Shown: positions 38,862-43,848 of the stretch, piece after piece
Position numbering within the stretch: the first letter of the stretch is position 1
Layout of the letters: each line of letters starts with the position of its first letter
NCBI GenBank assembly: GCA_028277605.1
Contig: JANQFZ010000026.1
Span: 1 to 64,000 of the forward strand
Reading direction: 5' to 3'
DNA from: Vallitaleaceae bacterium
Lineage (GTDB): Bacteria > Bacillota > Clostridia > Lachnospirales > Vallitaleaceae
Length of the DNA: 64,000 bases
Program-made: the position numbers and the translations under genes
The notes under the pieces: model-generated
What the model saw: only the letters and a program-made list of their open reading frames with translations
Told to the model about the DNA's origin: nothing
Database searches by the model: none

Positions 38862-39683
38862 TTATACGCCATTCATTCGCGGATAAATGGAAATACGCCT
38901 TTGTTCTTCGTCCACTTCATCTAGCTCTAATAATGCATAATAATTATTTATAAGCTTTTTATTTGGATCCTTGGTTACCATAACAACTCCTATCCCGACT
39001 ACTTCAGCTTCAAATTCTTTCATCAAGTCCATAACCCCTTTAGCTGTACCACCAGCTTTCATAAAATCATCAATAAACAATACTTTAGATCTCTTAGGAA
39101 TAGAACGTTTTGGTAAAGCCATTTTATTAATCCTTCTTGATGAACCTGTTAAATAATTCATCATAATAGTTGTACCTTCTGTAAGTCTAGCTGATTTTCT
39201 TACAACAACCATAGGTTTATTAATCATGTTGGCAACCACAACAGCTAGAGGTATGCCCTTTGTTTCTATAGTTACAACATAATCTATTTCATTATCTAAG
39301 AAAGGATAAACGAGGGCTTTTCCAATTTCTCTTAATAAGCTAGGTGTATAGAATATATCATTCATATACACATAGCCTCCCGGAATTATTCTGTCTTCCT
39401 TGTTGATTTTTTCACACAGTGTATGGCATATCTCTTTAATCTGATCAAGAGTTATTTTTGGGCTATAGTATACACCACCAGCAGCACCGGCTATAGATCC
39501 TACTTCTCCTAGGTTTAGTTGACTTAATACTTTTTCAATTACATCTATATCTTCACTTAATGTTGATTTAGCACACTGCAAAAGCTCACTAAATTGATTG
39601 AGGGTTATAACCTGATTAGGATTTTCTGTTAATATTTTGGTTATTGCTGCTATCCTTTCACCTTTGCTTACTCTTTTGTCCAT
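38862..39683 (-). CDS. purR: Purine operon repressor PurR
   Basis: A 273-residue repressor of purine genes. The N-terminal winged helix (about 1-75, with ERIAAITKILTENPNQVITL and AKSTLSEDIDVIEKVL) precedes a phosphoribosyltransferase-fold effector domain whose PRPP motif is VLFIDDFMKAGGTA at about 205-218. PRPP binding releases the Gram-positive PurR from DNA. AAGGAGATG precedes the ATG. It is the left-facing arm of a divergent pair with murC. It starts the conserved cluster that runs purR-spoVG-glmU-prs, here with glgC/glgD inserted. Confidence 0.95.
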   Translation of the reverse strand: MDKRVSKGERIAAITKILTENPNQVITLNQFSELLQCAKSTLSEDIDVIEKVLSQLNLGEVGSIAGAAGGVYYSPKITLDQIKEICHTLCEKINKEDRIIPGGYVYMNDIFYTPSLLREIGKALVYPFLDNEIDYVVTIETKGIPLAVVVANMINKPMVVVRKSARLTEGTTIMMNYLTGSSRRINKMALPKRSIPKRSKVLFIDDFMKAGGTAKGVMDLMKEFEAEVVGIGVVMVTKDPNKKLINNYYALLELDEVDEEQRRISIYPRMNGV

Positions 39684-39846
39684 AAGCCCATCTCCTTAAT
39701 TCTTATGCTTATTATTATACATGAACCCCCCCTATAAGTAAAACTTGCAACAGCTTAAACTTAAAATTTGTTTCACTTTAAAACAAACACTTTTATGGGT
39801 ATAATATATAATATTATAGATACTATTTTAAGGAGTGTGCCTACCT

Positions 39847-41229
39847 ATGTATAACATAAATTTTGACTTGCCTATAAGTATTCATTTTATTGGTATTGGT
39901 GGTATTAGTATGAGTGGATTAGCAGAGTTGTTACATGATAAGGGATTTAGAATTACTGGTTCAGATATGAAGACCTCTTTAATTATAGAACGATTACAAA
40001 AAACTGGTATAGAAATTAACATTGGTCATAGAAGCTCCAACATTTCAGATAATATAGATTTAGTTGTTTACACAGCCGCTATTCAACCATCCAATATTGA
40101 GTACCAAACCGTTCTTAAAAAACAAATACCAATAATCGATCGAGCTGAGCTTTTAGGGCAGCTGATGAAAAACTATAAGTATCCAATAGCTGTAGCTGGA
40201 ACCCATGGGAAAACAACCACAACCTCTATGCTTTCCCACATACTATTAGAAGCCAAAACCGACCCCACATTATCTATCGGTGGTATATTGGATAAGATTA
40301 ACGGTAGTATTAAAGTGGGTAATTCTGAGTTTTTTCTTACAGAGGCTTGTGAATACTGTGATAGTTTTTTAAAATTTTACCCATATATTGGTATTATATT
40401 GAATATTGAAGAAGACCATCTCGATTATTTTAAAGATATCGCTCACATACAATCTTCATTTATTAACTTTGCCAAAAAAATACCTAAAAATGGATATCTA
40501 GTCATTAATACAGACATCCATGATTACAAAAGAATACTTGAAGAAGTACCTTGTCAAACTATTACCTTTGGCTCAGACCAAAGCAAAGCCCAGTTCTCTT
40601 ATGGAAATCTTAAATACGATCAAAAAGGCAACCCATCCTTTGACCTATTTTATCAAGGGAATCCAATTAAATCAATTCAATTAAGTGTCAATGGCACACA
40701 TAATGTTTTAAATGCTTTAGCTTCTATTGCAGCTGCTACTGCATTAAATATAAAATGGGATGCCATTATCAAAGGACTTGAAAGCTTTATTGGTACTAAA
40801 AGAAGATTTGAATATAAGGGCAATCTTAAGGGAATACATATTGTGGATGATTATGCTCATCACCCTACCGAGATTATAGCAACACTTCAAGCGGCAAAAA
40901 ATTATCCACATAACCATCTCTGGGTAGTCTTTCAACCTCACACTTATACAAGAACAAAAGCTTTTTTAAAAGACTTTGCAAATGCTCTAACTTTGGCAGA
41001 TAACATTATTCTAACCGACATTTATGCTGCTAGAGAAAAAAATACAGGAGATATCCATACTAAAGATTTAGTCAAGGAATTAAAAAAAATGAAAAAAGAG
41101 GTTTATTATTTTCCGTCTTTTGATGAAATTGAGATTTTCTTGCTTCAAAAGTGTTATCCAAATGATTTGTTGATAACTATGGGTGCTGGAGACGTTAAAA
41201 TCATTGGAGAAGAATTACTTAATGGCTAA
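39847..41229 (+). CDS. murC: UDP-N-acetylmuramate--L-alanine ligase
   Basis: A 460-residue cytoplasmic ligase adding L-Ala to UDP-MurNAc, the first peptide step of peptidoglycan synthesis. It starts MYNINFDLPISIHFIGIGGI with the Rossmann glycine loop, has ATP-binding AVAGTHGKTTTTSML, the central-domain metal segment NIEEDHLDYFKD, and HVVDDYAHHPTEI-type sequence (here IHIVDDYAHHPTEI). The start is ATG 39847 after AAGGAG. A TATAAT lies at 39800-39805, with no clear -35. It is divergent from purR. Confidence 0.97.
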   Translation: MYNINFDLPISIHFIGIGGISMSGLAELLHDKGFRITGSDMKTSLIIERLQKTGIEINIGHRSSNISDNIDLVVYTAAIQPSNIEYQTVLKKQIPIIDRAELLGQLMKNYKYPIAVAGTHGKTTTTSMLSHILLEAKTDPTLSIGGILDKINGSIKVGNSEFFLTEACEYCDSFLKFYPYIGIILNIEEDHLDYFKDIAHIQSSFINFAKKIPKNGYLVINTDIHDYKRILEEVPCQTITFGSDQSKAQFSYGNLKYDQKGNPSFDLFYQGNPIKSIQLSVNGTHNVLNALASIAAATALNIKWDAIIKGLESFIGTKRRFEYKGNLKGIHIVDDYAHHPTEIIATLQAAKNYPHNHLWVVFQPHTYTRTKAFLKDFANALTLADNIILTDIYAAREKNTGDIHTKDLVKELKKMKKEVYYFPSFDEIEIFLLQKCYPNDLLITMGAGDVKIIGEELLNG

Positions 41230-41259
41230 TTATCCACATTATCCACAACTTTGTCAACA
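41230..41259 (+). promoter_or_regulatory. DnaA-box array, copy 1
   Basis: Two abutting perfect DnaA boxes TTATCCACA (41230-41238, 41239-41247), then three bases later TTGTCAACA (41251-41259), all in the same direction. The array overlaps the murC stop. The consensus box is TTATNCACA. The same geometry recurs 165 bases away. Confidence 0.8.
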
Positions 41260-41394
41260 GGTAAGTTATTCTCTATATGTGAATATTTAAGTTAACATAA
41301 TTCACACTGTTTAAAAATTTTTTATAGATTGATGGCACGTATTTTCTTAGTATGATGCGTGTCCATATTTTTGGTTGACACATTATGTAAAACT

Positions 41395-41424
41395 TTATCC
41401 ACATTGTCCACAACTTTATGCACA
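41395..41424 (+). promoter_or_regulatory. DnaA-box array, copy 2
   Basis: TTATCCACA (41395-41403), TTGTCCACA (41404-41412) and, after three bases, TTATGCACA (41416-41424). Order, orientation and spacing equal copy 1. Between and after the copies the DNA is AT-rich (TTTAAAAATTTTTTATAG at about 41310). The rest of the murC-dnaD gap (41230-41673) has no other supported feature. Confidence 0.8.
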
Positions 41425-41673
41425 ATTTAGTATTAACATCAAACTCTAAAATATGATTTTACTTTTTATAATAGACATCAATTAGACATATTAGTCCGCC
41501 TTTTATGTCAGAATATAGATTATTTGATGTCATACAATATTCTCATCACAAACGTAGAAATATATGTTATAATAAAAACTACTTTTTACCGTTAAACGTT
41601 TTTATGATAGCTTTAGTATTTGATGCTATCTTTATTAGTTTACATAAATCAACTTGATAGAAGGATGTTACAT

Positions 41674-42729
41674 ATGGGAACCTTAAAAATTTATCCACTG
41701 GATAACATAACCTATACATTAATCCCCAATGATTTTATTGATCATCATTTAATTCATGCCAATGGTGATTTTGTTAAGATATATCTTTTGATACTCCGTA
41801 TGATCGGTCAGGATTCTTATGATTTATCTACCGAATATTTAGCAGATTTGCTTCAACTAACTGAAGCGGATATACTTAGAGCGCTTAAATATTGGGAATC
41901 CAAAAAAGTCCTTAGTATAGCCTACAAAGGAAAAAAACCATGTGCTATTCATATGTGTTCATTAAATGTTTCTCCTAACAGCGATGAACCGAATACATCT
42001 GAGAATCAAGAATCTATTCATAGTACTATTTTAGCCAAACCACACTATTCAATTGATGAAATACAGGGATTTATACAACAGGCAGATTATAAGCAGCTCA
42101 TCTATGTTACACAAAAATATCTAGGTAAAATGCTAACAGAGCAGGATATTAATGTATTGATTAGCTTTCATGACTGGCTTGGACTCCCTTTTGAAGTGAT
42201 TGAACTCCTTATTGAATATTGCGTTTCCAACAATCATAGAAATATGAAGTATATTGAAAAAGTTGCATTAGATTGGACAGAAAATAATATTAAGAGCATT
42301 GAAAAAGCAGAGTATAGGATTGAAACTTTTAATAAAAAATACTTTGCTGTTATGAAAGCTTTTGGTATTGGCGACCGAAATCCTTCTATTAAACAGATAT
42401 CTTACATAAAGAAATGGACAACAACCTACAATTTATCTATGGAACTTATTATTGAAGCATGCAACCGTACGATTGATAAAATTAATCAACCACAATTTAG
42501 TTATGCCGATGCCATTCTTTCTTTTTGGCATAAAAATAATGTAAAAACTTTTGATGATGTTAAAAAGCTGGATGAAATCCATCAAACAAACAAAAAAACA
42601 AAAAATAAAGCGAATAAAAATTCTAAGAATAAGGTTGCCAATTACAATCAACGGCAATACGACTATGATCAACTGGGTAAAAAAGCTATGGAAATGCTTT
42701 TTAAAGAAACAAATGAAGGTGGGTACTAA
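41674..42729 (+). CDS. DnaD-domain primosomal protein
   Basis: A 351-residue DnaD/DnaB-type helicase-loading protein. It has an N-terminal winged-helix-like region (LLILRMIGQDSYDLSTEYLA at about 45-65) and two DnaD-type helical domains. The first has ITVTQKYLGKMLTEQDINVL-type sequence (here YVTQKYLGKMLTEQDIN), then LGLPFEVIELLIEYC. The second has KAFGIGDRNPSIKQISYIKK. The lysine-rich C-terminus (KTKNKANKNSKNK) should bind DNA. The start is ATG 41674, after AAGGATG. It forms a tight unit with the DnaI/DnaC-like gene four bases downstream, and follows the DnaA-box arrays. Confidence 0.8.
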   Translation: MGTLKIYPLDNITYTLIPNDFIDHHLIHANGDFVKIYLLILRMIGQDSYDLSTEYLADLLQLTEADILRALKYWESKKVLSIAYKGKKPCAIHMCSLNVSPNSDEPNTSENQESIHSTILAKPHYSIDEIQGFIQQADYKQLIYVTQKYLGKMLTEQDINVLISFHDWLGLPFEVIELLIEYCVSNNHRNMKYIEKVALDWTENNIKSIEKAEYRIETFNKKYFAVMKAFGIGDRNPSIKQISYIKKWTTTYNLSMELIIEACNRTIDKINQPQFSYADAILSFWHKNNVKTFDDVKKLDEIHQTNKKTKNKANKNSKNKVANYNQRQYDYDQLGKKAMEMLFKETNEGGY

Positions 42730-42732
42730 TTC

Positions 42733-43725
42733 ATGAAAATTAAACATTCTGAGTTTAAACGTATTTTAAGGCAGTATGAAGAAAAGCAATTAGCTCACAA
42801 ACATCTGCTTAAACTGAGAAAAAAAGAAATCTATCGTACCCTGCCAGAAATCGAAAGAATTGATGCTATGATTGCATCCAATAGTATCAAAACCTCATTG
42901 CTCATGATTGAAGAGCCTTTAAAGGCTCAATCCTATATGGAAAAATTAGAGGGCGAGAATCTTAAACTAAGTCTTAAGAAGCTCAAGTTACTTAGTGAGT
43001 ACGGTTATCCTAAGGATTATCTTGAACCAAAATACGACTGCCCCCTATGTCAAGATACAGGCTATATAGGTCATGAGAAGTGTAATTGTCTTAAGCAAGC
43101 CTTGATTGATGTTGCTTACGAGCAATCCAATATAAAAAACATATTAACCAAAGAAAATTTTGATACCTTTTCATTTGATTTTTATTCAAATGAAGTTGAT
43201 CCTAAGTACAGTATATCGCCATTAGATAATATTAGATTGATCCATGGTAAATGTCGCTCTTTTGTTGAAAATTTTGACTCCGCCTATACGAATCTTATTC
43301 TATATGGACGTTCTGGTCTTGGCAAAACCTTTTTATGCAATTGTATTGCTAAAGCACTTTTAGATGGTGGCTATACCGTTATCTACTTAACAGCTTTTGG
43401 TTTATTCAAGCTTTTTGAGGATTATAAATTCAATAGATCCTATGAGGATATCAGCGAAGAGAAAATAGAATCTATTTTTAGCTGCGATCTATTAATTATA
43501 GATGATTTAGGTACTGAATTAAATAATACCTTTACAAGTGGAGAGCTGTTTAATTGCTTGAATACAAGATTATTGAACACAAAGTCTACATTGATTTCAA
43601 CCAATCTTATGCCAAACCATTGGTCCGATAATTATTCTGACCGTATTGGTTCAAGGATTTTTGGTAACTATCAAACATTACTTTTCTTTGGAGAGGATAT
43701 ACGGTTAAAAAAGAAATTTAAATAG
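42733..43725 (+). CDS. DnaI/DnaC-type helicase-loader ATPase
   Basis: A 330-residue AAA+ protein. A basic coiled N-terminal part is followed by a zinc-binding group CPLCQDTGYIGHEKCNC (about 103-119), Walker A LYGRSGLGKTFLC (about 195-207) and Walker B LLIIDDLGTEL (about 254-264), with the sensor/arginine region ISTNLMPNHW. The family loads the replicative helicase DnaC/DnaB at origins. The zinc motif and length are as in Bacillus DnaI and related clostridial proteins. It starts four bases after the dnaD-like stop, so the two are co-translated. Confidence 0.85.
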   Translation: MKIKHSEFKRILRQYEEKQLAHKHLLKLRKKEIYRTLPEIERIDAMIASNSIKTSLLMIEEPLKAQSYMEKLEGENLKLSLKKLKLLSEYGYPKDYLEPKYDCPLCQDTGYIGHEKCNCLKQALIDVAYEQSNIKNILTKENFDTFSFDFYSNEVDPKYSISPLDNIRLIHGKCRSFVENFDSAYTNLILYGRSGLGKTFLCNCIAKALLDGGYTVIYLTAFGLFKLFEDYKFNRSYEDISEEKIESIFSCDLLIIDDLGTELNNTFTSGELFNCLNTRLLNTKSTLISTNLMPNHWSDNYSDRIGSRIFGNYQTLLFFGEDIRLKKKFK

Positions 43726-43756: not shown

Positions 43757-43773
43757 ACTACTTGTCGCTATAT

Positions 43774-43847
43774 GCACGTATAGCTCAATTGGATAGAGCA
43801 TTCGGCTTCGGACCGAAGGGTTGTGGGTTCGAGTCCTACTACGTGCG
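43774..43847 (+). tRNA. tRNA-Arg (anticodon TCG)
   Basis: A 74-base cloverleaf. The acceptor GCACGTA pairs with TACGTGC, the anticodon stem TTCGG/CCGAA encloses CTTCGGA, and the T arm is TGTGGGTTCGAGTCCTACT. The anticodon TCG reads CGA. CCA is not encoded. Its 3' end from 43820 is repeated at 45008, indicating use as an integration target. Confidence 0.95.
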
Positions 43848-43848
43848 T
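43820..43848 (+). repeat. Attachment-like direct repeat, copy within tRNA-Arg
   Basis: A 29-base perfect direct repeat with 45008-45036, starting GTTGTGGGTTCGAG. It includes the 3' part of the tRNA. Confidence 0.8.

Follow-up and report, generated by a model that had tools for sequence, protein, structure and literature searches.

The analysed stretch of DNA (hereafter the window, 64,000 nucleotides of contig JANQFZ010000026.1 from a Vallitaleaceae bacterium) carries, between murC and the operon of a dnaD-like primosomal gene and a dnaI-like helicase-loader gene, two short arrays of 9-mers resembling the binding boxes of DnaA, the initiator protein of chromosome replication (Table 1). In both arrays the boxes follow one another in the same direction as box-box-N3-box, with ACT as the N3 both times, and the start-to-start spacing of the two arrays is 165 bp. 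Several 9-mers fitting TTATNCACA stand in an organised spacing beyond chance, as in a DnaA-box array; the earlier note, made from the sequence alone, had described this geometry, and its claim proved correct and, moreover, understated. The murC stop codon TAA occupies positions 41227-41229, and array 1 opens on the very next base. The gene calls for murC and the DnaD/DnaI-like pair on either side were confirmed by NCBIfam, and the divergence of transcription near 39.7 kb, between purR and murC, was found as described, as was the absence of dnaA from the window, this gene being located on another contig.

Table 1. Features of the murC-dnaD-dnaI region (positions in the window)
Feature	Position	Strand	Remarks
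purR	38862-39683	-	NCBIfam-confirmed
murC	39835-41229	+	gene 5' of the arrays; NCBIfam
Array 1	41230-41259	+	box1 TTATCCACA 41230-41238, box2 TTATCCACA 41239-41247, ACT, box3 TTGTCAACA 41251-41259
Inverted box-like 9-mer ATATTCACA	41278-41286	-	exactly +48 from box1 of array 1
GTTAACATAA motif	41291-41300	+	kept in the window's family, mean identity 0.80
TATGTAAAAC, inverted GTTTTACATA	41384-41393	-	immediately 5' of array 2
Array 2	41395-41424	+	TTATCCACA 41395-41403, TTGTCCACA 41404-41412, ACT, TTATGCACA 41416-41424
Predicted dnaD-operon promoter TGTTATAAT, extended -10 type	41565-41573	+	family mean identity 0.86
GTTTACATAA motif	41638-41647	+	in the dnaD 5' leader
dnaD-like primosomal gene	41674-42729	+	TIGR01446 DnaD domain
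dnaI/dnaC-type helicase-loader ATPase gene	42733-43725	+	PRK06835

With one mismatch allowed, single boxes are no more frequent in the window than expected (108 against 109) and, therefore, the signal lies in the arrangement of the boxes. The tandem TTRTCCACATTRTCCACA occurs in two copies in the 3.34 Mb genome, both at these arrays, the reversed control giving 0 matches; TTRTCCACA-TTRTCCACA tandems are likewise confined to the two arrays, and a three-box search of the whole genome returned array 2 as the sole match. The surroundings of the arrays also have counterparts elsewhere, with the full TTATTCACA at exactly +48 from box1 in several other families, and ATTATGTNNAC variants or ATTATGT-like sequences ahead of array 2 in other lineages. 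The GTTTACATAA-like motif is present in the window's family in three conserved copies, the first following array 1, the second in reverse orientation ahead of array 2, and the third within the dnaD leader; it was rejected as an oriC motif, since no exact copy was found in the 18 kb surrounding this genome's dnaA. A known structured RNA at the arrays was rejected as well, because Rfam gave no match there, its sole match being a distant glmS riboswitch at another of the collected loci.

The twin-array element is conserved across the taxonomic order of the window, which we infer to be Lachnospirales, partly from the prevalence of Lachnospiraceae among the named twin-array loci. The scan of 84,980 species genomes with the twin-array pattern returned at least 120 matches, 80 of them listed, and among the matches listed 69 of 80 are the murC-dnaD locus, mostly of Lachnospiraceae, such as Blautia, Anaerobutyricum, Lachnospira, Lacrimispora, Lachnotalea and Anaerostipes; the count includes one locus (L190) where the sequence ends just past the array, with murC upstream, and another (L186) where the upstream gene is not murC. 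Three of the matches listed, all from Exiguobacterium (L219, L221, L226), are placed upstream of dnaA. Because these loci were picked by the pattern, independent evidence comes only from the features outside it, namely box3 of array 1 (at +21), the stop codon just before the array, and a hairpin.

Conservation was also assessed in relatives, 58 of 59 of which possess a DnaD-like protein, at the loci with murC directly upstream of dnaD and a gap of at least 100 bp (n = 44, the window included); two of these loci (G067 and G095) joined the set after matching the tandem pattern, and the others were chosen regardless of it. The abutting same-strand pair of boxes was found at 39 of the 44 loci, against 0.01 expected from dinucleotide shuffles, and the same-strand boxes amounted to 211 against 25.9 expected in the same way. 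Twin abutting pairs were present in six families (f1, f6, f8, f15, f22 and f24). In the window's own family, the twins in their strict definition were found in 11 of 22 genomes and at least one pair in all 22. The mean pairwise identity in the family alignment is 0.90 for the tandem boxes of both arrays versus 0.38 over the remainder of the gap, and the 18-mers of the two arrays rank highest in conservation within the gap. The phases of the boxes are fixed, and array 2 in Lachnospiraceae expands to 2-4 abutting TTATCCACA-like units. The loss of the arrays in close relatives had been named in the earlier note as grounds for refutation, and the arrays survived this comparison.

As for the gene to which the element belongs, on balance it probably goes with dnaD. 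At the locus L186 the arrays are located upstream of dnaD, with an ATPase gene, not murC, on their 5' side. Against the regulation of dnaD, however, stand one family (f12) where dnaD is apart from murC, with scattered boxes behind murC and none upstream of dnaD, as well as several lineages in which murC and dnaD are separated and neither has the array. In seven relatives of one or two contigs, dnaA and the dnaD locus are approximately 45, 180, 250, 270, 346, 844 and 1259 kb apart (from dnaA to the arrays, ~270 kb in G013 and ~844 kb in G014), and such variation, from 45 kb to 1.26 Mb, indicates that the element follows a gene boundary rather than a map position.

Both arrays precede the predicted dnaD promoter, which is of the extended -10 type (TGNTATAAT), is located between array 2 and dnaD and is kept in many genomes and families, so that the boxes are found in the control region of a conserved, predicted promoter, as at DnaA-regulated promoters. 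In about a dozen genomes worked out, the array ends ~34-120 bp upstream of the -35 element and does not overlap the core promoter. The DnaA of this genome carries the box-recognition region, DHTTIIHGYEKI.

As judged from sequence, the two arrays probably act together as a single conserved element through which DnaA would control the dnaD-dnaI operon. DnaA would bind each array cooperatively, with box2-N3-box3 in the spacing of the 'double DnaA box' of E. coli and box1 as its extension, and the DnaA complexes at arrays 1 and 2 would set the output of the extended -10 promoter driving dnaD and dnaI, whereby the supply of the helicase-loading proteins would track the level or the nucleotide state of DnaA. 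An additional role of array 1, situated at the murC stop, may be to shield dnaD from murC read-through. As to the sign of regulation, there is a slight lean to activation, because the arrays are upstream of -35 with no core promoter overlap where checked. It is consistent with this scheme that E. coli DnaA prefers box pairs 2-3 bp apart (PMC11317965), and that DnaA is described in the review PMC8203912 as an activator or a repressor at other promoters. However, the varying distance of array 2 to the promoter among families (~34-120 bp from -35) implies no fixed geometry of contact with RNA polymerase, and the occurrence of abutting pairs also near other genes, e.g., hpf, likewise counts against it. 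Among the readings suggested in the earlier note, the evidence now best supports control of the primosome genes by DnaA; titration is less likely, and the origin element is unsupported.

The main rival explanation, titration, which can coexist with regulation, supposes that the arrays chiefly take up free DnaA and thereby hold back initiation, in the manner of the DnaA-box clusters outside oriC in B. subtilis, their association with dnaD being incidental. At least five strong boxes in a genome without a comparable tandem cluster elsewhere would suit such a reservoir, for which the early initiation after deletion of six clusters in B. subtilis is a precedent (PMC5295017; PMC13220808). It is, nevertheless, rather unlikely as the principal role, given that the distance to dnaA is as variable as shown above, that the arrays keep to a particular gene boundary instead of a map position, remaining beside dnaD in L186, and that a reservoir requires neither twin arrays nor an adjacent promoter.

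A site of the datA or DARS type, at which the tandem-plus-inverted geometry would hold a particular oligomer and thereby alter the nucleotide state of DnaA, is improbable. The exact +48 position of the inverted box in several families, together with the fixed box phases, points in this direction, and the conserved GTTTACATAA motifs round the arrays could bind a helper protein; this reading leaves, however, the link to dnaD unexplained, and E. coli helpers such as IHF are absent in B. subtilis along with datA, DARS1 and DARS2 (PMC13220808).

Slightly less probable still is that the arrays are not DnaA sites at all, array 1 being the intrinsic terminator of murC or an antisense promoter and its likeness to boxes a by-product. 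The hairpin in question, found at 50 of 70 murC-dnaD loci, has box2 of array 1 as the 5' arm and TGTGG as the 3' arm, followed by a T-rich tail, its inner stem occurring in more than 20 different, mutually paired sequences, and in many Lachnospiraceae it is, by its sequence features, a predicted intrinsic terminator of murC with the DnaA box as a fixed arm. Nevertheless, the window's own family keeps the boxes without the terminator hairpin and, therefore, the boxes are not explained by termination, which was rejected as the whole story together with the antisense promoter; a fixed arm, moreover, does not require the box sequence, and array 2 is generally without a terminator and expands, in Lachnospiraceae, into the abutting units mentioned above. 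The reverse strand of array 1 (41257-41229, -) reads as a sigma-70-like promoter TTGACA-17-GATAAT (11/12), which would run antisense into murC, but such a promoter would not keep CCACA in every box.

The least probable reading, that the arrays are a replication origin or part of oriC, draws on the dense DnaA boxes within AT-rich DNA and on the similar pattern upstream of dnaA in Exiguobacterium, but was rejected because a box-rich rpmH-dnaA region exists elsewhere, the sign of the skew is the same on both sides of the arrays, and the locus may lie as far as 1.26 Mb from dnaA. The canonical oriC is found in the rpmH-dnaA gap on another contig, with five perfect TTATCCACA boxes in both orientations besides several weaker ones, TTATCCACA being thus the box also of this genome's oriC. 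The GC-skew check proposed for placing oriC located the sign change at rpmH-dnaA and none at the arrays, where neither a switch in strand composition nor adjacency to dnaA/rpmH was found; in the single-contig relatives G013 and G014, the sampled skew and coding strand likewise flip at dnaA and keep a constant sign on either side of the arrays.

The proposed DnaA-binding control element of dnaD-dnaI falls among kinds of sites already known, both non-oriC DnaA boxes and transcriptional regulation by DnaA being established. The E. coli double DnaA box pairs two boxes of the same direction at a distance of 3 bp and is used at DnaA-bound regions other than oriC (Stringer et al. 2024, PMC11317965), whereas in the window the pair is joined at 0 bp by a third box, the unit is doubled ~165 bp apart, and the proposed target is dnaD-dnaI. 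The clusters of DnaA boxes in B. subtilis (Okumura et al. 2012, cited in PMC13220808) are similarly non-oriC clusters of Firmicutes and a possible DnaA reservoir; in contrast, one locus tied to the dnaD operon is found here order-wide, at a variable distance to oriC and with a rigid repeated geometry. Boxes upstream of replication-machinery genes are also represented by DnaA-regulated dnaA-dnaN and, in Caulobacter, dnaB and dnaQ, according to the review PMC8203912, in which a term search found no mention of dnaD or dnaI; the proposed target here is, in distinction, the helicase-loading pair. With datA and DARS of E. coli the arrays share the multi-box organisation outside oriC, but they are gene-linked rather than position-linked, and an activity on the nucleotide state would be a conjecture here. 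No report on DnaA boxes at dnaD or on replication control in Lachnospiraceae was found in the literature searched, which was mainly freely accessible, so that this absence is no proof.

More tentatively, and with a chance somewhat short of even, the element may constitute an order-wide circuit, in which DnaA would directly control the helicase-loader operon via a fixed twin-array complex, the initiator setting the supply of its own downstream partners, and in which, in many Lachnospiraceae, one DnaA box would be built into the terminator arm, with binding and termination sharing the same bases. How the amounts of helicase-loading proteins are matched to initiation in Firmicutes is poorly known, and a conserved DnaA element at dnaD-dnaI of Lachnospiraceae and related families would tie the initiator to the primosome in a direct and testable way. 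The hosts are common gut bacteria, where replication control has hardly been studied, and the arrays supply strong candidate sites at which DnaA could be sought by ChIP or footprinting in these species.

Box arrays were also observed beside other genes. Thus, abutting TTATCCACA pairs occur at five loci (L044, L046, L056, L355, L357), in several families of the order, upstream of an apparent gene of the ribosome hibernation factor HPF, assigned by eye, which is a second candidate target of DnaA. A near-identical twin array TTATCCACATTATCCACAGAGATATGCACATATGTTCG is shared by eight records (L166, L215, L223, L348-L352) of a clostridial family (f45), by the replicative helicase gene where the genes were read; in L166, L215 and L223 the array is flanked on its opposite side by a gene for an FAD-dependent dehydrogenase. 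The label Calditrichales of L166 probably reflects a mislabelled or contaminated record. In two genomes of one family (L359, L360), box-box-N3-box arrays are flanked by a metallophosphoesterase-like gene on one side and a small open reading frame on the other. Within the window, a perfect sigma-70-like promoter TTGACA-16-TATAAT (12/12) was noticed in the segment 43729-43848, directly 5' of tRNA-Arg (43773-43848). The genes murC-dnaD-dnaI (39835-43725 in the window; loci L327-L346 in relatives) are oriented head-on to replication, and thus lie on the lagging strand, in 19 of the 20 relatives judged from the skew of the upstream DNA, which is not independent evidence, since most of the 20 genomes share the upstream purR-glgC-pth-mfd block; the head-on orientation was also found by position and strand in the seven complete or near-complete genomes checked.
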